Positions 4,903 to 22,863 of a DNA stretch of 25,237 nt are shown in pieces. Within the stretch, counting starts at the first letter, position 1. Every line of letters begins with the position of its first letter. The stretch spans positions 1 to 25,237 of IMG/VR virus record IMGVR_UViG_3300017917_003592; one strand, given 5' to 3'. The translations under genes and the position numbers were made by a program. The stretch is from a virus. Below the pieces are notes generated by a model. It had not been told where the DNA came from, made no database searches, and worked only from the letters and a program-made list of their open reading frames with translations.

Positions 4903-5520
4903 TCACCATATTTTTAGAAATGCAATTTCTTTTATTTCGTTTTTATGATTTCTTAATTTTTTCATACAGGAAGACAAAGCATTTTTAACCCCAAACTCCG
5001 AACTATATTTGAATTTTTTAGCTATATCAATCATTGACATTTTTTTAACGTATCTGCTATAAATTATATTAAATTCTTTTTCCGTTATTAATGTTTTAAT
5101 TTTATTCCAAAAATCTTTTACATCTTTTTTTTCTGTTTCATTATATTGGTTTTTTTCTGTTTTTTGGCCTAAATATTTTTTTGACAAATTTTGACTATAA
5201 TCTGTAAAATTAGTTACAACAGTTTTTTTTAATTTTATTGGCGCTCTTGTAACGCCATTTTTTATATTATACCTTCTTTTTTTATATATTTCCGTTTTCA
5301 AACACCAGGACAATAACGTTCCAAAATTACACTTTTTAGATTCATCAAAACGAATAGCACAACGATACAAAGCATCGTGTGCAATTTCTTTCCAATCTTC
5401 TGGATAAATTTCATTCCTTTTTATCAATTTTTTTTTCATTAAAAAATATGCTAAATGTTCATTTTGCTCAATCAATTTTTTTTGTTTATCATTTAATCTC
5501 GGCAATTCTTTTTTTCTCAT
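4903..5520 (-). CDS. Phage sigma-70-like factor (second of a tandem pair)
   Basis: 205-residue, very Lys-rich protein. Residues ~41-83 resemble sigma region 2 (EDWKEIAHDALYRCAIRFDE, then NFGTLLSWCLKTEIYKKRR), and residues ~145-190 resemble region 4, a helix-turn-helix (ITEKEFNIIYSRYVKKMSMI, then IAKKF...KKLRN). It is a paralogue of the upstream gene: both start LNDxQxKLI and have FWxKI before region 4. It begins two bases after that gene's stop, with AGGT as a weak RBS, and is followed by the terminase genes. Likely redirects RNA polymerase to late phage promoters. It could instead be a sigma-like regulator without polymerase binding; identification rests on motif pattern only. Confidence 0.7.
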   Translation of the reverse strand: MRKKELPRLNDKQKKLIEQNEHLAYFLMKKKLIKRNEIYPEDWKEIAHDALYRCAIRFDESKKCNFGTLLSWCLKTEIYKKRRYNIKNGVTRAPIKLKKTVVTNFTDYSQNLSKKYLGQKTEKNQYNETEKKDVKDFWNKIKTLITEKEFNIIYSRYVKKMSMIDIAKKFKYSSEFGVKNALSSCMKKLRNHKNEIKEIAFLKIW

Positions 5521-5522
5521 TT

Positions 5523-6188
5523 TTAACCTAACAATAAATCTTCAAATTCTTTTATATTATTTGCTTTTCTAGCTTTTGCTATTATTCGCAGTTTTGTCAT
5601 AGCGTGCCTAATTATATTAACTGAAGTAGTATAGTTTTTATTTTGTCCCATATCTTTAACTATTTGAACATTTGTCATACCTAATAAAAATTTATTTTTT
5701 ACAAATAACCATTGTTCTGGCGTTAGCATGTTTTCTATTTTTTTCCAAAAAACATTTCTGTCTTCATTACTATATTTTTCTTCTGGAGATTTTCTAAGTT
5801 TATTATCAATACTTAAAACATCTTTAATAAAAAAAATATCACTTGTACGATCATTATTTAATTCTTTATCGAAAGAATGATTATAAAAAATATCTCTTTT
5901 TTTTTCTGGAGTATATGTAATCCCACCGGTTCTATTTTTTCTAACAGATTCGCAATAATAATATTTTACATAATAATATAAAAATGTGTGAAATTTATAT
6001 TTTCTACTTGGATCAAATTTTAGAGCCGCACCGACTAAAGAATCATGAACTATTTCTTCTTCATCCTGTTTGTTTATAAACATTCTTCCCTTGCTTTTTG
6101 CATGAATTTTATTAAAAAAATATTTACATACTTTTATATTATTTATTATTAATTTCTGTTGTTGATCATTTAATTTATTTTTGTTCAT
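5523..6188 (-). CDS. Phage sigma-70-like factor (first of a tandem pair)
   Basis: 221 residues. Region 2-like segment at ~41-86 (QDEEEIVHDSLVGAALKFDP, then FHTFLYYYVKYYYCESVRK) with the FDPSRxxxFxTFL pattern typical of sigma region 2, and a region 4-like helix-turn-helix at ~154-203 (LTPEQWLFVKNKFLLGMT, then HAMTKLR). No clear Shine-Dalgarno precedes the ATG at 6188; the start lies inside a 29-bp sequence that is repeated at 6331-6359. The 147-base gap upstream carries repeated ACGACGCAAT boxes. Position between the replication genes and terminase suggests a middle-to-late switch; that role is inference from known phage sigma factors such as SPO1 gp28 and T4 gp55. Confidence 0.75.
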   Translation of the reverse strand: MNKNKLNDQQQKLIINNIKVCKYFFNKIHAKSKGRMFINKQDEEEIVHDSLVGAALKFDPSRKYKFHTFLYYYVKYYYCESVRKNRTGGITYTPEKKRDIFYNHSFDKELNNDRTSDIFFIKDVLSIDNKLRKSPEEKYSNEDRNVFWKKIENMLTPEQWLFVKNKFLLGMTNVQIVKDMGQNKNYTTSVNIIRHAMTKLRIIAKARKANNIKEFEDLLLG

Positions 6189-8018: not shown

Positions 8019-10163
8019 TTATTTAATGTCCCCATTCTGTATAACTTTGTAATATGTTCCTTTTCTACCGGCTTTTTTAGTTATTGGCGTAATAATTTCT
8101 ATTACCTTTTGCTCAACTAGTACCTGTCGTATATCTTCGTGTTCTTTTTTACTCCAAGGAAAAGCCCTGTATATCTTGTACATGGGTACAATTTCAATTC
8201 CTTTTTTTAGTTCATCTATTAAGTAGGCTAATAGTTTTTTTCTCTTATTATCAAAGTCTGAAATATAAGAGTGTCTCTCTATCATAAGAATAGTTCGTTT
8301 AGTTGTCCATCTTGAAAACGATATTCCCCATTGTGCGGATAATTCATTTATTAAAGGTAAATCTTCAAAATTCCAATTGCTAGCTGCATGGATCAAAGAT
8401 AATTTTTTTGCTTTTTCTAACGCTCTGGCCCAAACACTCATGCAAATATGATTTTTTTCCTGTTCAGCTTTTTTATAATGATGCTCGTCTATTTCTTCCC
8501 TGTAGTCGTGAAACAATTTTAACGCGCTTTCATCCGCTCTGAACACTACCGGAACCGGATTAATATCGGATAGGTTACCTAAATTCGGTTTATACTCAAA
8601 CCATTTTTTTGCTTTATTTATAATTTCTTCAGGAATATCATCAATAGCCGTTTCCTGTCCTTTAGCTCTTGTTCCAGCTTCTATAACAATGGTTCTGGCT
8701 AGCAATCCATTAGACGCCAACCGTTCGGATACTGAGGAATAAAACAAAGAAGGAACCGCGGTTCCGTATATGGTTAAACTAGGCTGATTAATAACCGTTG
8801 GCTCTTTTCCAGCCTTAGAGCGTCCGATATGTGTTGATGCAGCTGAACTATAAAGAGTTAAAAGCATGGAAACAATGCTTTCATGCCTAGACTCTTTTTG
8901 CGTTGATAACTTCTGAAACAATCCATCTATTTCATCAATTTGAAATAAAACCGATGGACATAACCCCAATTTATCCTCTAATCCTTCACCAGATGCTATA
9001 TTACTTCCAAGAGAATTAGAAAAACCCGATCTAAATAATATCTCGGTGTTTATTTTTCTACTATGATCCTTTCCGGTTCCGCTATTAGCTAATGCAAATA
9101 AATATAAATTACTTCTATTGTTTTGCTGGTCCCGTATTTTTCTTGCGCATAGAACAGACATTAAACAAACCGCTGCCGAAAACGATAGAATAGGCTCTGG
9201 ATACGGTGCAGTTTTTAAGGAATAGTTTATAACTTCAGATATAAACCCTCCAGGGTTTAGTAATTCTTTAGGAAACAATTCGTCTTGTTTCAATTGTAAA
9301 TTGTCAATAAATTCTATTTTTTCATCATCTTTATTGTCATCTATTAAATATTTATTTTCATAAGAGTTTTCCGCATACGATTGAGCAATTGAATTAATTT
9401 CATATCTGCAAACACTGTTTGCAATGTTTTTTATTTCTAATTCTTCCAAACATGGTTTGCATCTTTTATAATTTGTTTGTATTAAAGCTGCCAAAATTGC
9501 TTCATAACTTAACCCTATTCTTCTTAATGAACCAGCCAAACTAGTAAGGGTTGAATTTCTTGATCCTTCAATAATAATATCAGATTGATTATAAATTGAT
9601 TTAGATAATGGATTATCTAAATTAATTGATTTATTTTCATTTTTTTCAGGTTCTCCGTAAGTAAGTAAATTTTTTAACCACTCTGAAGGTTCAGGGAGTT
9701 CATTAATTTTGCAGGATAATTGTTTTTTCCAATAGTAATTATCTGAATTAGGACATACAACATAACCTCCATAAGTTTTTACGTCTACATTTTTTGCAAT
9801 AAAACTGGTTGAATTTTTCCAAGTAGAACCATAAACAGACCTATAAAAAAAATGAAAACCAACTCTAGGCGTACAAGTTATCGCTCCAGAGTTTTCAAAA
9901 ATATCTTTTCTGTGATTGTCATTTTCCGGCCATTGTGGATTATCTGAATCTATTACAATTAAACCATCGCAGTTTATAGCGACATTATATTCAGGATTTA
10001 TTCTCCACCAATTGCATATAATTTTTTCGTCCGTTGTAGCGGAATGCAATCCGGTTGAAACGGCTGGAATTTTTCCACCTGGTATACATGGAAAAACTTT
10101 ATAACCTAGTCTAGCCAATGTTAAAGCAGATTGTAACTTATTTTTTTCATCTTGATTATTCAC
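8019..10163 (-). CDS. Prim-pol primase / DUF3987-like helicase
   Basis: 714-residue replication protein. N-terminal primase-polymerase (~10-170): KVFPCIPGGKIPA, catalytic IDSD (D72, D74), GFHFFY (H104) and VDVKTYGG (D128). A PriCT_1-like domain follows (~199-253, GSRNSTLTSLAGSLRRIGLS, then RCKPCLEE). The helicase part (~290-600) resembles DUF3987/D5-type ATPases: Walker A ANSGTGKDH (358-366) and Walker B VLFQIDEIDG (404-413). It would make primers and unwind at the phage fork. Start is GTG at 10163 with AAGGA nine bases upstream; no better ATG is near. It follows the RadD-like gene and precedes the palindromic region. Confidence 0.9.
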   Translation of the reverse strand: MNNQDEKNKLQSALTLARLGYKVFPCIPGGKIPAVSTGLHSATTDEKIICNWWRINPEYNVAINCDGLIVIDSDNPQWPENDNHRKDIFENSGAITCTPRVGFHFFYRSVYGSTWKNSTSFIAKNVDVKTYGGYVVCPNSDNYYWKKQLSCKINELPEPSEWLKNLLTYGEPEKNENKSINLDNPLSKSIYNQSDIIIEGSRNSTLTSLAGSLRRIGLSYEAILAALIQTNYKRCKPCLEELEIKNIANSVCRYEINSIAQSYAENSYENKYLIDDNKDDEKIEFIDNLQLKQDELFPKELLNPGGFISEVINYSLKTAPYPEPILSFSAAVCLMSVLCARKIRDQQNNRSNLYLFALANSGTGKDHSRKINTEILFRSGFSNSLGSNIASGEGLEDKLGLCPSVLFQIDEIDGLFQKLSTQKESRHESIVSMLLTLYSSAASTHIGRSKAGKEPTVINQPSLTIYGTAVPSLFYSSVSERLASNGLLARTIVIEAGTRAKGQETAIDDIPEEIINKAKKWFEYKPNLGNLSDINPVPVVFRADESALKLFHDYREEIDEHHYKKAEQEKNHICMSVWARALEKAKKLSLIHAASNWNFEDLPLINELSAQWGISFSRWTTKRTILMIERHSYISDFDNKRKKLLAYLIDELKKGIEIVPMYKIYRAFPWSKKEHEDIRQVLVEQKVIEIITPITKKAGRKGTYYKVIQNGDIK

Positions 10164-10195: not shown

Positions 10196-11938
10196 TTACC
10201 AAGGTATATCCATTTCGTCGCATGTTAAACGTTTTGGATAATTATTTTGTTTTTGTGGATTTTCTATTTTTTCCGGTTCTGTAAAATTTGTTTTGTCTGA
10301 TTCAAAATTTTCTTCAAATTGGTATCCTGTTATTTCTGGATATTTTTGTCCATGTTTTCTAGTAGTTGTTATTGCAATTGTTCTGGCGATTGCTCCACTG
10401 AGAGCATAATCAACCGCTACCCTTACAGAATCCGGAACAGGACGAACGTTAGAGCGATTAATCCACCACGTTTCCGCTTTTTTTCGAGCATATCCCGAAT
10501 GGTTAAAACATATCCATTCTGAAAAATATTTATAAAGGCCAATGCAATAAGTAACTTTCATGCTTTCAGATATGTCACCGTTAGGCAATGTTTTTTGATA
10601 AATAGAATATGATACAGATATTACATGATAATTTTTTACTTCAATTTCATTATTCTCTGAATCGCTTATTATATCAGATTTTTCATCCGGTTGCAAATTA
10701 TTTTTAATTTCAATTGGCTGTTCAGCATTACATACAGGACAAATTCTTTCCCTGATGCCTATAATAGCCTCGCATGTTCTGCATTTTTTTTGCAGTTTTG
10801 TATCTATTTTATTTTTATTTTTACCTTTTTTATTATTAATATCTATTTGATCTATTGGACCATGCCTAATTATATTTCCAGAAAAATCTAATACTAGGCA
10901 ATTTTCTTTTCCCGGATGCAATCTAAATCCTCTCCCTACCATTTGATAATACAAACCAGCAGACATAGTCGGACGAAGCAATACAACGCAATCAATGCAG
11001 GTAGCATCAAATCCCGTAGTTAATACATTTACATTAGTAAGATATTTTATTTCTTCATTTTTGAATTTTTTTAGAATTTCATCCCGCTCGTCTGATGGCG
11101 TATCTCCACAAATAAACTCGCATTTTGATTCAGTTAATTCTTGCATTTTATTTTTTGTTGCTTCGGCATGTATAACAGAACAACAAAAAATTAATACAGA
11201 TTTTCTGTCTATTGTTCTTCTTATTAATTCTCTGCTAGTAATTTCTATTAAATTTTTATTTTCCATCGTTTCAGATAACTCTTGTTGATCAAATTCACCT
11301 CCTTTAATTTTTATAGATTCTAAATCTAATTTTGAATCTTCGCTTATTTTGTTAATTATTTTAGATAAATAACCATCATTTATTAACTGTTTAACCGATA
11401 TTTCGTAACATATTTCGTTAAGTATATTTTCTGGACCACATATGTTTCCACTTTTTAACCTGTACGGTGTGGCAGTCAATCCAAGTATTTTAATGTGCGG
11501 ATTTACAATACGACATTCATTGATAAAGGTTTGATACATTCCCTCGCCATTAGGAGGTATTAAATGCGCCTCATCGACAATGATTAAATCAAAAGGATCA
11601 AAACCAAGAGCATTCCTAAATATGCTTTGAATACTTGCAATTGTAATTGGCTTTGTTGCTATTTTTTCATTTAGTCCAGCACAATAAAAGGAATATTTTG
11701 AATCATAATCATTGCCTATAAAATGTTTTAATTTTTCTGCGGATTGGACAAGCAATTCCTTATTGTGTGCAAGTATAACTACTCGCATTCCCCAACTAAT
11801 AAAATCACTACATATCTTAGCAATTATCGGAGTTTTGCCTCCTCCTGTTGGTATAACAACACAAGGGTTAGTTTTTTTTGTTTCAAAATGTTTGTAAACA
11901 GAATCAACGCAATCTGCCTGATATTTCCTAAGTTCCAT
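10196..11938 (-). CDS. RadD-like superfamily 2 DNA helicase
   Basis: 580 residues from the ATG at 11938, chosen because AGGA lies nine bases upstream; a TTG at 11947 would add three residues and overlap the previous stop. SF2 motifs: Q-like KYQ near the start, Walker A PTGGGKT (30-36), DEAH (122-125), LTAT (154-157), and the motif V/VI region TTGFDA and QMVGRGFRL. A zinc-binding CRTC...CPVC pair and a C-terminal extension give the architecture of E. coli RadD (YejH, about the same length), a helicase linked to recombination and double-strand-break repair. Neighbours RusA, DUF669 and Sak4-like ATPase support a recombination role. Confidence 0.85.
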   Translation of the reverse strand: MELRKYQADCVDSVYKHFETKKTNPCVVIPTGGGKTPIIAKICSDFISWGMRVVILAHNKELLVQSAEKLKHFIGNDYDSKYSFYCAGLNEKIATKPITIASIQSIFRNALGFDPFDLIIVDEAHLIPPNGEGMYQTFINECRIVNPHIKILGLTATPYRLKSGNICGPENILNEICYEISVKQLINDGYLSKIINKISEDSKLDLESIKIKGGEFDQQELSETMENKNLIEITSRELIRRTIDRKSVLIFCCSVIHAEATKNKMQELTESKCEFICGDTPSDERDEILKKFKNEEIKYLTNVNVLTTGFDATCIDCVVLLRPTMSAGLYYQMVGRGFRLHPGKENCLVLDFSGNIIRHGPIDQIDINNKKGKNKNKIDTKLQKKCRTCEAIIGIRERICPVCNAEQPIEIKNNLQPDEKSDIISDSENNEIEVKNYHVISVSYSIYQKTLPNGDISESMKVTYCIGLYKYFSEWICFNHSGYARKKAETWWINRSNVRPVPDSVRVAVDYALSGAIARTIAITTTRKHGQKYPEITGYQFEENFESDKTNFTEPEKIENPQKQNNYPKRLTCDEMDIPW

Positions 11939-11943
11939 AAATA

Positions 11944-12114
11944 TCAATCCTGTGTATTTTTTGTATTTACTGGCTTCCTATTTGTTATCTTTCCGTTAAA
12001 AATTTTGCTATTTTTCCTGCTGCATGAATTACAAATTCTATTAGCTGCCGATGAAGATACAAAAAAAATATCGCATTTCAAACATTTTCTGTAGGCTTTT
12101 GTATTTTTATTCAT
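11944..12114 (-). CDS. Small zinc-finger-like protein (56 aa)
   Basis: ATG at 12114 to TGA at 11946-11944. A CxxC pair at C11/C14 (RKCLKCDIFF) and a second at C28/C31 (RICNSCSRK), 13 residues apart, form a four-Cys zinc knuckle; the rest is basic. The pattern 'RKCLxC...RxCxxCS' is frequent in small phage proteins of unknown role, probably nucleic-acid binding. AAGGAA lies eight bases before the ATG, in the last codons of rusA, and its stop is five bases before the helicase start, so it fits tightly in the operon. Confidence 0.75.
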   Translation of the reverse strand: MNKNTKAYRKCLKCDIFFVSSSAANRICNSCSRKNSKIFNGKITNRKPVNTKNTQD

Positions 12115-12117
12115 TTA

Positions 12118-12498
12118 TTATTCCTTATATTCAATTAGTTTGACTTCAGCATATCCATCAAAAATAGGTTTTTTCCTCGTTATAACTAATTTATCAACTA
12201 GATTATCGTTTTTAATTATTCTAAATTTTTGAAGAACATCTAAAATAGGTTTTACGTTATTATCTATATCCCTCAGTCTTTTATCCGGAGGGTACAAAAC
12301 AATGTGAATTTCTAACCTGTAATCTATTGTATTTATTAATTGTTTTTCTAAAAACTGCTCCAAAACATTTTTGCAACCGGCTATAAAACTTTTATATTTT
12401 TGTCCTATTGTAGGACGTTTATAATTATAAACCCTATACATTGTGTTAGACGTACAAGGGTACGGCAAAACAATTGTAAATTCTTTTTCGTCTGACAT
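12118..12498 (-). CDS. rusA: RusA-family Holliday junction resolvase
   Basis: 126 residues, typical RusA length. The catalytic signature is complete: D77 and D79 in RDIDNNVKPILD, K83, and D98 in IIKNDN, with the same spacing as D70, D72, K76 and D91 of E. coli RusA. The N-terminus has the usual PYPCTSNTMYR start. RusA cuts four-way junctions symmetrically to give linear DNA that can be packaged, and acts with recombination proteins encoded on both sides. AAAGG precedes the ATG. A 15-bp hairpin lies just upstream, between this gene and DUF669. Confidence 0.92.
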   Translation of the reverse strand: MSDEKEFTIVLPYPCTSNTMYRVYNYKRPTIGQKYKSFIAGCKNVLEQFLEKQLINTIDYRLEIHIVLYPPDKRLRDIDNNVKPILDVLQKFRIIKNDNLVDKLVITRKKPIFDGYAEVKLIEYKE

Positions 12499-12578: not shown

Positions 12579-13097
12579 TTAGAAATCAATATTATCTCTT
12601 CGCGCCCAATTCGGTTTGCTTGTTTTGTTGTTATTGCCATTATTTACCTTGTTTGGTGGTGTTTGTTGCGTTTGTTTTGCCTGTTGTTGTTTTGGCTTAT
12701 AGTTTGTTATTTGATTGTTTAATTCTCCATTGTCTAAACGTTTTTTTACTCTAACAGAAATTATCATAGCAATTTCGTGTAAATCTTCACTACATTCTGG
12801 AGAAACAATTCCACAAGCTTTGCAAATTGCAGCAAGTTCGGCTCTAGCTATTCCCCTAGCTGCATCGGATGGATTATCTAAATTGAGTCTGACAAATAAT
12901 TTTCTGCCTTCAAATTGTCCTTCTAAAACAGAAAAACACAATTCCAAATAATTTCCATTACCTGCTCTAGTCTGTTTCATTTCCGATGAAATGATACAAG
13001 CTAAATAATCCCCGGCCGGTAATGGTTCATATGTTCGCATTTGATTTTCATCATTTGCGTTAAATTTTTTCATATGAAAATCGCTAAACGATGGCAT
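12579..13097 (-). CDS. DUF669 protein, likely ssDNA-binding
   Basis: 172 residues. Residues ~1-115 form the DUF669-like core (LPAGDYLACIISSEMKQT, LELCFSVLEGQFEGRKLFVR, AELAAICKACGI). A Gln/Asn/Pro/Lys-rich linker follows, ending in RRDNIDF. The flexible tail with an acidic-hydrophobic tip resembles SSB proteins, and DUF669 genes typically sit beside Sak4/RecT-type genes in phages. Likely coats single-stranded DNA during replication and annealing. AAAGGATG precedes the ATG. It follows the Sak4-like gene, which strengthens the assignment. Confidence 0.85.
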   Translation of the reverse strand: MPSFSDFHMKKFNANDENQMRTYEPLPAGDYLACIISSEMKQTRAGNGNYLELCFSVLEGQFEGRKLFVRLNLDNPSDAARGIARAELAAICKACGIVSPECSEDLHEIAMIISVRVKKRLDNGELNNQITNYKPKQQQAKQTQQTPPNKVNNGNNNKTSKPNWARRDNIDF

Positions 13098-13125: not shown

Positions 13126-13875
13126 TTAGTTTTGATTAATAGATTGAAAAAAATCTTCCCAAGATAGTGGTATTTCTTCACTAATCCCGTATCGGTTTTT
13201 AGCTATGGTTTGTAATTGAGTATAACAAATTATAACTCGATCATCGTTTTTGGACGATTTTGCTATATTTCTTTCTTTTCCGAATCCCTGTTGCTCTTTT
13301 TCCCTCCTGATTTTTTTTGTGGCAAATAATATTGCATCACACCACTCAATTAGTGGCCCAGAAATAGTTCTATGTAGTTTGATAGTATTTCTATCGTAGC
13401 TGCCTTCAGGATCTTCATATTTTTCTATTTTTGCATGGCATGTCAATATAACTGCCATATTTTTTTCATCTCTTAACCACTCAAGTTTTTTTATTATTTC
13501 ATCCCAACTCTTCAAGGCTGCGACATAACCTTTTCCGTATCCTCCCATAATTTTTTCGATACTATCTGTCGAAAAAGTATTGCATAAATCCCGATGGATT
13601 AATCTTTCTAACCAATCTAACGAATCAATAACTATAGTTTGAAACTCATGAGATTCATCAATCAAACAATCAAGATACTTTATTACTTCTAAATAATTTT
13701 TCGCTAGTGGAAATTTAGCGGATTCTATTTGATCTAATCCGTCTTCCGTTTGGACAAAAACAGGATTAGGAGCACCAGAGCAAAACGTACTTTTTCCTAT
13801 TCCAGGATGTCCATAAATCATTATTCTAGGAGGAGAATTTTTTTTACCTTTTGTTACAATTTCTTTAATATTCAT
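13126..13875 (-). CDS. Sak4-like RecA-fold ATPase (AAA_24-type)
   Basis: 249 residues from the ATG at 13875. Walker A GHPGIGKST (22-30), an early FVQTEDGLDQIESAKFP segment, Walker B TIVIDSLDW (80-88) and VILTCHAKI (motif-III-like) make it a single-domain RecA-core ATPase of the phage Sak4 / AAA_24 kind, implicated in single-strand annealing with an SSB partner. A further ATG at 13884 sits directly against AAGG and is less likely; the ATG used has AAGG eight bases before it. The start overlaps the end of csrA (ATG inside its last codons), so translation is probably coupled. Confidence 0.85.
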   Translation of the reverse strand: MNIKEIVTKGKKNSPPRIMIYGHPGIGKSTFCSGAPNPVFVQTEDGLDQIESAKFPLAKNYLEVIKYLDCLIDESHEFQTIVIDSLDWLERLIHRDLCNTFSTDSIEKIMGGYGKGYVAALKSWDEIIKKLEWLRDEKNMAVILTCHAKIEKYEDPEGSYDRNTIKLHRTISGPLIEWCDAILFATKKIRREKEQQGFGKERNIAKSSKNDDRVIICYTQLQTIAKNRYGISEEIPLSWEDFFQSINQN

Positions 13876-14071
13876 TTTGTTCATCCTTGTTATTGTTTGG
13901 TTCTTTATTTAATAACTCTTCACGCAATATCCTTACACTCTTGGGCGCATCTATGGACATTTTCATACGTCCATTTTCCATAGCATATGGATAGATCCAT
14001 ATTTCTATATCACCTATCACTATTTTTACGTTTCGTTTTCCAGGTATATCGTATCTAGTCAATACTAACAT
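13865..14071 (-). CDS. csrA: CsrA/RsmA-like RNA-binding regulator
   Basis: 68 residues. It starts MLVLTR (L4 and R6, both RNA-contacting in CsrA), continues with KIVIGDIEIWI (the second strand region) and ends with SIDAPKSVRILREELLN, matching the conserved (N/D)APK-V-xxREE tail of CsrA, with R50 aligning with R44. It is longer than E. coli CsrA (61 aa): there are about four extra residues after MLVLTR and a charged C-terminal tail (EPNNNKDEQNEY). CsrA dimers bind GGA-containing mRNA leaders and alter translation or stability. A phage copy could retune host or phage mRNAs. GGAAGGTGA precedes the ATG. It overlaps the Sak4-like gene by 11 bases. Confidence 0.85.
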   Translation of the reverse strand: MLVLTRYDIPGKRNVKIVIGDIEIWIYPYAMENGRMKMSIDAPKSVRILREELLNKEPNNNKDEQNEY

Positions 14072-14094
14072 TAATCACCTTCCTTGATATTATC

Positions 14095-14472
14095 TTATTG
14101 ATTAAAGTTTTCCCTTAAAAACTCTTTAGTTTTCAATTCTAAAGAATTTACAAACGGTCGTTTTCCTATGTAATCATCGGCAATTTTTTTCAAAAACTCA
14201 TTTGTTTTATTCAATAGCTCTTGCAATTTTTTTAATTTTTCTGCCTCACTGTTACCATCTTTTTTTCCTTCTTCAATTACCACTACTTTTTTATTAGTAC
14301 AATTATACGCTATGAATCTAACGTCTACCTCGTCCAGCATAGGCGAGCATCTTCGTTGATTAGCTGCATGAAGAGCCGATAATATCTCTTCGTAACTAAA
14401 TTCGTTATTCCTCATTATATTTCCTAATTTTTGCAAAAGTAATTTCCTACCGTCATCTTGATAGTTCGTCAT
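14095..14472 (-). CDS. Stand-alone PriCT_1-like domain protein
   Basis: 125 residues. Residues ~8-57 (GRKLLLQKLGNIMRNNEFSY, then AANQRRCSPMLDEVDVRFIA) align well by eye with residues ~199-253 of the large prim-pol (GSRNSTLTSLAGSLRRIGLS, then RCKPCLEELEIKNIA), the PriCT_1 module linking primase and helicase. The remainder is a Lys/Glu-rich helix, probably a coiled coil, with no catalytic domain. It is the first gene of the replication operon, directly behind the consensus promoter. A role as loader, adaptor or competitor of the prim-pol is possible. AAAGGAAAAA precedes the ATG. Confidence 0.65.
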   Translation of the reverse strand: MTNYQDDGRKLLLQKLGNIMRNNEFSYEEILSALHAANQRRCSPMLDEVDVRFIAYNCTNKKVVVIEEGKKDGNSEAEKLKKLQELLNKTNEFLKKIADDYIGKRPFVNSLELKTKEFLRENFNQ

Positions 14473-18434: not shown

Positions 18435-19097
18435 CTATATATTATTTAATAAAGCTGAAAACCTCCCTATGTCTTTTTTTTCTTCAAATTTTACAGAATA
18501 ATTATATCCAAGATATTTACTTAATGAATGTATATTACAGATGTCATCTAAATTGTGAAATTCTCCGACTATGTATTTTATTTTTGTAAACAGATTTGAT
18601 TCAAATAATATTTGATATTCAGAACCTTCGCAATCAATTTTCATAATATCTATAAAAGATTTTTTTGACCATGTAATCATTAAATCTATAATTGCATCTA
18701 ATCCAAGAACTAAAACCGGTTGTCCATTAGTTCCGAGTGTATTTCCTCCACCTGTATTTGTTCCAACGTCTGCATATGCTGCAATACTTTTAGAATCAAT
18801 TTTACTTCCGCCAACTGCGCAAGGAATTAATAACGCTCTATCTGAAGCGCGACAAACTTGATGAATGTTATGTTGTAATAAATGAAAATTTTCTATAGAT
18901 GGCTCGCATGATATTATTTTTCCTATTCCTCTATCAAGAGCATAATAAGTAAATCCTCCAATGTGCGCTCCAATGTCAATTGCTGTTGTGTGTTGTGTTA
19001 TATTATAATTGTTTAATCCATATTCATCGTGTTCAACTACACTTTTCCATATGTTTTTATCCCATGTTTTTTCCCTAAAATATAAATCGTTATTCAT
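18435..19097 (-). CDS. FkbM-family methyltransferase
   Basis: 220 residues with the class I SAM-methyltransferase core: glycine-rich loop IDIGAHIGGFT (40-50), an acidic SAM ribose-binding segment (CEPS, E65) and the MKIDCEGSEY motif that is diagnostic of FkbM proteins, which O-methylate sugars on glycans and polysaccharides. It overlaps the glycosyltransferase stop by four bases (ATGA), so the two are co-translated. Probably methylates a sugar added by that enzyme, either on virion proteins or on a host surface glycan. No signal peptide, so cytoplasmic. Confidence 0.85.
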   Translation of the reverse strand: MNNDLYFREKTWDKNIWKSVVEHDEYGLNNYNITQHTTAIDIGAHIGGFTYYALDRGIGKIISCEPSIENFHLLQHNIHQVCRASDRALLIPCAVGGSKIDSKSIAAYADVGTNTGGGNTLGTNGQPVLVLGLDAIIDLMITWSKKSFIDIMKIDCEGSEYQILFESNLFTKIKYIVGEFHNLDDICNIHSLSKYLGYNYSVKFEEKKDIGRFSALLNNI

Positions 19098-20662: not shown

Positions 20663-21541
20663 CTATTCCGTTATTGTTACCGTAGCGGCTCCAGGACAAG
20701 GAAAACCGGCGTTTGTTGTGCTGCCTTCCCATAAAAAAGGATTGCAAGATTTTAATTCACCTATCCAAGGATCATAGCCAATAGCAAAAGTAACCAACCC
20801 AAAAACATATTGAAAAACTCCATCTATTTCAATACATTGAAAAGTTATTCCTGTTGGACCACAAGCCGATGGCGGTTGAATAGATGCACTATAGTCATCT
20901 ATTCCTTGATAATTAATAACAACGGTTCCAACGGACGCCAATGCTCCTCCAAACGTAACGGACAAAGTAGATAAATTCAATCCGCAACAACCGGCAACGA
21001 TTGGCACGCTTCCCGCTGGAATACTTCCGCTTGCAATCGAGCCGCTACCAGCTGAACCGCTACCAGAACCACTACCGGAACCACTTAAAGAAACGCTAAA
21101 ACTAATTGGTTCAATTCCGCTTGCAATGCTTCCTATTTCAATCAAACTACTAGCAGAACCACTACCACTACCCGATCCGCTACCACTACCGGAACCACTC
21201 GCAGAAACGCTAGGACTAATTGGTATGCTTCCAGCTGGAATACTTTCGCTTGCAATCGAACCGCTAGCGCTACCCGAACCACTACCACTACCGGAACCGC
21301 TGCCAGAACCGCTACTAGAGCCTATGCAATTTGCTATAGCGTAAATTTTTCTATCTGTTGATCCAACTAACCTTCCTATATTTTTTATTATGCTTGAAGA
21401 TAATGAAAAAATTTTTCTATCATTTGCGCCTACTAGTCTGGCTAATTGCTTTCCTTGCATTTCGGGACAAATAGTAGAATATATTTTTCTATCGGAATAT
21501 CCAACTAATCTAGCCAATGCCCTAGGTTGTGCCGTAGCCAT
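20663..21541 (-). CDS. Ser-Gly repeat fibre-like protein
   Basis: 292 residues in three parts. The N-terminus holds three copies of RLVGxxDRKI (residues 11-20, 35-44 and 57-66), 22-24 residues apart, probably a virion-attachment region. Residues ~75-181 are low-complexity Ser-Gly dipeptides in three larger blocks separated by IPAGSIPISPSVS-like spacers. The last ~110 residues are a Cys-containing beta domain (LSTLSVTFGG, DDYSASIQPP, FQYVFGLVTF, then CPGAATVTITE). The design resembles a flexible stalk and terminal binding head of a tail or decoration fibre. Placed after the structural gene at 21547 and before a glycosyltransferase. Confidence 0.6.
   Translation of the reverse strand: MATAQPRALARLVGYSDRKIYSTICPEMQGKQLARLVGANDRKIFSLSSSIIKNIGRLVGSTDRKIYAIANCIGSSSGSGSGSGSGSGSGSASGSIASESIPAGSIPISPSVSASGSGSGSGSGSGSGSASSLIEIGSIASGIEPISFSVSLSGSGSGSGSGSAGSGSIASGSIPAGSVPIVAGCCGLNLSTLSVTFGGALASVGTVVINYQGIDDYSASIQPPSACGPTGITFQCIEIDGVFQYVFGLVTFAIGYDPWIGELKSCNPFLWEGSTTNAGFPCPGAATVTITE
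20999..21319. repeat. Low-complexity Ser-Gly coding repeats
   Basis: Three blocks of (Ser-Gly)n-coding DNA built from short ACCACTACCGGAACC-like units, separated by related Ser/Ile/Pro spacers. Such arrays are prone to slippage and length change. Confidence 0.85.
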
Positions 21542-21546
21542 TGTTT

Positions 21547-22863
21547 CTAAACACTCCCTGCATCAATAACCCAGATTCTTTCTCGATCTTTCCATTGTTT
21601 TTGAATATCATCCCAACGCTGAATAAAAGCATCAAAATAAATTCCGTTTTTTTGTCCAGTAAGACGAACGATTTCCGTTAATGGATCAATTTCTCTATCC
21701 ATACCCAACGTCGTTGGCGGTTTTCCATTTCTGTAAATAGTGGTTATTGTTCCTCTTCCAGGTATCGGTAAATCATTTCCTGAATCTGACCACTCAACAG
21801 ATGTAACTTGCGAATTAGGAATAAAACCAATATCGTTTATAGGCGCTGCATAAACTAAATAAGCATCATCAATTCTATTAGCTAAATCATCAAAATATAG
21901 CTTTGCTCTTTCTGTTGCTTTTAATTGTAATTTGTCTAAATTGTTTGGCCCGCTTCCATCAGCATTATACAATGCTGGAGTATCGTCGTAAATTGTTATT
22001 ATTCCTTCAGGAGAATCGTCCGGCCATAATCTTGATCCTGATAAATAATCAGATAAATCTATTGTATAATAAGGAGAATTTTGCCCTCTAATATGTGGCA
22101 ATTTAGAGAATACAATTCTAACATATTTTGGAACTAATCCCTTAGAACTAATTCTAGTGTAATCGTCCCATATTTTTAACTTGTTATATTTATTTATTGC
22201 GTTATTGTAATCGTCATCATTTGCGGCCGCTAGTTTTATTGTGTATTCTTCTGTTGTTGGATTGTAACACAATCGGCAATTAATTTTAGATAAAATATCT
22301 GACAATGCAAAAATACCTGAAGTATTCCAATATTCTAAATCTGTTGGCAATCCTTCAGGATTTATAGGAAGTAAAGAATCACCTGATAAATTAATTTCAT
22401 TCCAAACATAGTCTATACATTCTTGCCATGTTTTTGATTGTATCAATTCTTCATTGGTAAATTTATGCCTAACGTTAAACGCTACATCTATTAGTTTTTT
22501 ATTATCAATTAATCTTTTATCATTTAGTGTCATTAAATAAGCTGAATTGCTTTGCGATGCGCCAGGAGTTAAACATTGACAATTGATAGATATAAGATTT
22601 TTAATTGTTATTGAATAATATGAATCATTGTTCAAATATGTTGAAAATTGTAAATTATATTTACCGTTTAGATATTTTGAACTATCAATAATATCTAAAG
22701 TATTTTTTGATATTAATATATTGGCCTCACCCGGAACATGGCCATAAGGACAATTATATTTATTTACTTTTGGTAACCAATCTACACTTAAACCAATAGA
22801 ACGGCATGAACGCGCTAATGCCGAAGGATCTAAACAGGGTTGGTTATTTATCAAAACTGTCAT
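21547..22863 (-). CDS. Large unknown virion or tail-region protein
   Basis: 438 residues without a recognised domain, starting MTVLINNQPCLDPSALARSC. It is rich in beta-type segments (YYSITIKNLISI, YVRIVFSKLPHIRG, GTITTIYRNGKPPTT) and in Trp/Tyr; a GHVPGEANILI region and Cys pairs near the N-terminus are the only unusual features. Its start overlaps the head-morphogenesis stop (ATGA) and it lies directly before the fibre-like gene, so a baseplate, connector or tail component is plausible. I cannot assign a family. Confidence 0.65.
   Translation of the reverse strand: MTVLINNQPCLDPSALARSCRSIGLSVDWLPKVNKYNCPYGHVPGEANILISKNTLDIIDSSKYLNGKYNLQFSTYLNNDSYYSITIKNLISINCQCLTPGASQSNSAYLMTLNDKRLIDNKKLIDVAFNVRHKFTNEELIQSKTWQECIDYVWNEINLSGDSLLPINPEGLPTDLEYWNTSGIFALSDILSKINCRLCYNPTTEEYTIKLAAANDDDYNNAINKYNKLKIWDDYTRISSKGLVPKYVRIVFSKLPHIRGQNSPYYTIDLSDYLSGSRLWPDDSPEGIITIYDDTPALYNADGSGPNNLDKLQLKATERAKLYFDDLANRIDDAYLVYAAPINDIGFIPNSQVTSVEWSDSGNDLPIPGRGTITTIYRNGKPPTTLGMDREIDPLTEIVRLTGQKNGIYFDAFIQRWDDIQKQWKDRERIWVIDAGSV

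Follow-up and report, generated by a model that had tools for sequence, protein, structure and literature searches.

A phage-encoded CsrA-family protein in a Sak4-type replication module and its putative role in translational control

The window analysed here comprises the whole of a virus record, 25,237 bases long and possibly itself a genome fragment. Its minus strand carries a run of genes in the order unknown 125-aa gene, csrA, Sak4-like ATPase, DUF669/SSB-like gene, RusA, helicase, and Prim-Pol primase. The small gene (14095..14472) lies directly upstream of csrA and is probably the first of the operon; its 125-aa product has no convincing family match in profile searches with the ORF. 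A gap of 23 nt (14072..14094, minus strand), which contains the Shine-Dalgarno sequence AAGGAAGG, separates it from the csrA-like gene (13865..14071). The latter encodes a 68-residue protein, read from 14071 to 13865 as MLVLTRYDIPGKRNVKIVIGDIEIWIYPYAMENGRMKMSIDAPKSVRILREELLNKEPNNNKDEQNEY. The first-pass annotation had given the right coordinates for this gene but had left its strand, which is minus, unstated. The next gene codes for a Sak4-like ssDNA-annealing ATPase (13126..13884; AAA_24, phrog_124). It is followed by genes which profile matches assign to a DUF669/ssDNA-binding-protein-like protein (12579..13097), a RusA-like Holliday junction resolvase (12118..12498), a superfamily II DNA helicase (10196..11947), and a Prim-Pol/PriCT-1/DUF3987 primase (8019..10163), all on the minus strand. 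The csrA-like gene had been described as overlapping the Sak4-like start within the replication operon, and it does so by 20 nt when the mechanical start at 13884 is used. The ATG at 13875, nine bases downstream, has the better-spaced Shine-Dalgarno AAGGA and is the more likely start of sak4; hence, the two genes may in fact overlap by 11 nt.

The csrA-like ORF encodes a real CsrA-family protein. It matches Pfam PF02599 at 7.8e-10 with 39 bits, above the cut-off of 27, and the same family scores 41.6 bits in a six-frame search. PHROG 9500, named 'CsrA-like regulator', also matches the protein (9.7e-6). Different from these, the NCBIfam csrA equivalogs TIGR00202 and NF002469 give 28.4 and 30.1 bits, below their respective cut-offs of 70.1 and 73. 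As the score for PF02599 exceeds its cut-off while the equivalog scores are far below theirs, the protein is a CsrA by family and not a csrA equivalog. The two family matches, together with the phage genes that surround the gene on the viral record, bear out the first-pass view of a phage-encoded CsrA-like protein. That view also held that the key RNA-contact positions are kept. In an alignment of 63 sequences, the protein indeed retains L4 and R6 on β1, the A42-P43-K44 core, and R50 on β5, which is equivalent to R44 of E. coli CsrA. L4 and R44 have been named as critical RNA contacts of CsrA (PMC7652899).

We then inspected the fold in an AlphaFold model of the single chain, for which the 63 related sequences served as the input alignment. 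The confidence of this monomer model is moderate, with a mean pLDDT of 70 and a pTM of 0.46, and β1 has no strand assignment. Foldseek against the PDB returned CsrA, RsmA, or RsmE chains as all of its 14 best matches, ten of them at a probability of 1.00, with query-based TM scores of 0.45–0.61; after these 14, the probability falls below 0.15. VIA-align likewise found CsrA/RsmA/RsmE in all matches listed, with Z scores of 4.2–5.2, a range which alone would be middling. Both comparisons thus recover the CsrA β-strand fold with a C-terminal helix, within the moderate confidence of the model. The charged tail noted in the first pass is present after the CsrA core, and residues 60–68 have a pLDDT below 50. 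The protein most likely forms the domain-swapped homodimer that is usual for CsrA, and it is most likely a putative binder of single-stranded A(N)GGA RNA. That the ORF merely resembles CsrA by chance, or is bacterial contamination, is extremely improbable, and nothing was found in favour of either. The score is above a curated Pfam cut-off, and the only confident fold matches are CsrA chains. Contamination from a host, which the first-pass annotation had kept in view as a way for its claim to fail, is ruled against by the terminase and portal-type genes of the record, by the placement of csrA in a phage replication module, and by the recurrence of that csrA-module order in other viral contigs.

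An alignment scan of viral contigs reveals how often this neighbourhood recurs. In L007 (GC 0.54), csrA is directly upstream of Sak4, and the order Sak4-SSB-helicase-PrimPol is the same. Three further contigs, L011, L012, and L014, which are near-identical to each other (GC 0.66–0.69), show the same direct placement of csrA before Sak4. In L045, Sak4 is preceded by a very divergent CsrA-like ORF (5335–5547) that scores above the Pfam cut-off and lacks the MLVLxR start. In L099, L251, and L254, csrA is located about 1 kb (within about 1–2 kb) upstream of Sak4. The csrA of L241 has a weak Sak4 relative on one side and a helicase on the other, and is within about 1–2 kb of the Sak4-like gene. Conversely, we inspected 160 loci collected by their Sak4 gene, of which three (L045, L099, and L158) have a recognisable csrA within the sequence examined; that of L158 is several kb downstream of Sak4. 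The replication module itself is widely conserved. As the csrA-sak4 pairing recurs while most of the 160 Sak4 loci do without csrA, csrA is a recurrent but optional accessory gene of the module. Separately, three viral contigs (L008, L242, and L244) each carry two different csrA genes, and in L242 and L244 one of the pair is of a divergent type ('IGIEADKEITV.RSEL').

The protein of the window departs from its relatives mainly in one loop. This β1–β2 loop is longer by five residues, inserted between R6 and the IGD turn (YDIPGKRNVKIVIGD), and the spacing therefore runs from R6 to G20, as compared with R6 to G15 in canonical CsrA. The extra residues after the first strand had been seen in the first pass and are present, although their number had been put at about four. 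One further residue is added ahead of the AP motif. The β1–β2 insertion is absent from the other 62 aligned sequences and, by eye, from further phage CsrAs, about 85 sequences in total; these further relatives in viral contigs were reached by alignment queries and not by direct tblastn of the protein. No relative of this exact protein came up in tblastn of phage records or in a pattern scan of viral contigs. Position 7 is a Tyr where Lys or Arg is usual, and in the protein tree the end branch is 2.15 long against a median of 0.57, in a tree built on few columns and giving no supported placement. Such a long branch, an insertion unique to this sequence beside the RNA-binding strand, and the exchange at position 7 would fit a captured csrA allele which no longer binds GGA RNA and either drifts or has taken on a new role as a protein partner. 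We regard this reading as very unlikely, given that the ORF is intact and that L4, R6, R50, and the APK core are kept; a Tyr after R6 is also found in the phage CsrAs of L008 and L011.

We then examined the leaders for candidate regulatory sites. The first-pass annotation had proposed that the protein might time translation through the AAGGAAGG site in its own leader. This site is present in front of csrA (AUCAAGGAAGGUGAUUAAUG), but it is the ordinary Shine-Dalgarno of the gene, and AAGGA-type leaders are general in this phage, where they precede many genes. When the leaders of the phage are ranked by their agreement with the E. coli CsrA consensus, the csrA leader comes out mid-list. It folds no better than its shuffles (z −1.03), and the predicted structure places its GGA outside any hairpin loop. 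Around the sak4 start there is essentially no structure, and no significant hairpin presents a GGA in its loop. There, the Shine-Dalgarno of sak4 lies inside the 3' end of csrA as ACAAGGATG (13882..13890, minus strand). This site matches ACARGGAUG, the core of the E. coli CsrA consensus (PMC7652899), perfectly, as no other site in the window does. We dropped this perfect ACAAGGAUG as evidence for a CsrA site, since 29 of 100 shuffled windows have at least one match and AAGGA leaders are general. A search for a CsrB-type sponge RNA saw no dense cluster of AnGGA motifs.

Comparison across phages used sak4 starts as the control for leader sites, mechanical ORF starts being judged too crude. An AnGGA Shine-Dalgarno precedes 33 of 38 phage csrA genes versus 57 of 135 sak4 genes of related modules, counts which ignore relatedness. 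The longer CANGGA is weakly enriched at phage csrA starts (14/33 versus 80/333, p = 0.02; relatedness again ignored). AAGGA leaders are also common at sak4 starts in modules with no detected csrA. As such leaders are general in the phage and common at csrA-free sak4 starts, the candidate sites may be plain ribosome-binding sites. The csrA gene of E. coli is known to regulate itself (PMC7652899). The excess of AnGGA at phage csrA leaders fits self-regulation, and equally fits a small gene that is simply well translated. From the leader sequences, self-regulation of the replication operon by the phage CsrA is plausible.

The host of the phage is likely in the Planctomycetota/Verrucomicrobiota group. 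Sak4 relatives are frequent in planctomycete records, and a planctomycete host was considered on this ground. It was dropped because a second phylum, reached via a Verrucomicrobia record, matches equally (30/294 versus 27/289), and with equal rates in two phyla the assignment at phylum level was abandoned. The structural protein encoded at 21547–22863 was searched in both phyla and gave no match. For the phylum of the Planctomycetes record (G001), 149 genomes were sampled and CsrA was found in 54 of them, with copy numbers of 9 to 17 in some; for that of the Verrucomicrobia record (G408), the figure is 15 of 145. These counts bear on the main rival to self-regulation, a host-directed role (the first-pass annotation had suggested that host control might be overridden) in which the phage CsrA would compete with or mimic host CsrA and reprogram host mRNAs, its place in the operon merely giving early expression. 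As the candidate-host phyla often carry CsrA, up to 17 copies of it in one genome of the first phylum, a network for it to enter often exists, and phage CsrAs are widespread. However, many candidate hosts have no detected CsrA, and a role inside the phage would account just as well for the repeated link to Sak4. We consider a host-directed role possible but rather unlikely.

The reading we favour, and hold to be probable, is that the phage encodes a CsrA-family RNA-binding protein as an accessory at the head of the Sak4-SSB-RusA-helicase-PrimPol module, where it tunes translation of its own operon. In this scheme, the protein would form a domain-swapped dimer, and the dimer would bind A(N)GGA in single-stranded RNA where this motif overlaps a Shine-Dalgarno sequence. 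Binding would repress or adjust translation within the operon at the csrA leader and at the overlapping sak4 start. Other phage and host mRNAs might also be regulated, the host-directed part being an unsupported guess. A more specific version of self-regulation seems unlikely to us, namely that the protein belongs to a phage-specialised CsrA lineage, that this lineage serves Planctomycetota/Verrucomicrobiota phages as a dedicated feedback switch on translation of the Sak4 module, and that the loop extension has changed its RNA preference.

Phage csrA genes are already known. Sobrero and Valverde (2020) reported csrA in 30 phages (PMC7366521), and 90 records of a phage collection match a canonical CsrA query, a few of which are large and maybe bacterial. 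The csrA of the window is a new, slightly unusual example and not a new kind of system. It shares with the CsrA/RsmA/RsmE family (PF02599) the fold, the length, L4, R6, and the R44 equivalent, the APK core, and a GGA-containing Shine-Dalgarno before its own gene, and differs in the five extra β1–β2 residues, the one more before AP, the divergent charged tail, and the sub-equivalog scores. Phage-borne csrA alleles, e.g., those of Pseudomonas RsmM-type phages and of Vibrio phages (PMC7366521), resemble it in being carried by phages. The phage csrAs found by tblastn are canonical and come mostly from Pseudomonas and Vibrio phages, whereas for the csrA of the window tblastn of phage records gave no match; it lies in a replication operon, and its phage is one of another bacterial group. 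CsrT of Legionella ICEs and other mobile-element paralogues, among them the csrA in the replication region of plasmid pMBA19a (PMC7366521), are likewise csrA genes on mobile elements; their carriers are conjugative elements and plasmids, not phages, and the likeness drawn here is between their published descriptions and the csrA of the window. What is new here is the phage group, the repeated link to the Sak4 module, and the loop extension. Earlier descriptions of phage-borne csrA came from mostly proteobacterial phages; the example takes it beyond these, ties csrA repeatedly to a DNA replication/recombination module, and offers a concrete case in which to test whether phage CsrA proteins act on the operon of the phage or on the host.

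The remainder of the window has several other features. An intergenic element of about 105 nt occurs four times (603–707, 1170–1274, 1483–1587, and 1841–1945), with 67–85% identity to the first copy. The copies lie upstream of small genes on the minus strand; ahead of the start codon, the leaders of these genes have CAACTAAC..GGGAAAGG in common, and the element is perhaps a repeated promoter/leader. Two adjacent genes (4903–5520 and 5523–6188) match phage sigma-factor families (phrog_351), and part of the transcription of the phage may thus be under the control of its own sigma factors. Among the structural genes are an FkbM-type methyltransferase (18435–19097) and a putative mannosyltransferase (PF11051; 19094–20656), a pair that suggests glycan modification. 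Beside the structural genes, the gene at 20663–21541 encodes a protein with long Ser-Gly repeats (SGSGSG).
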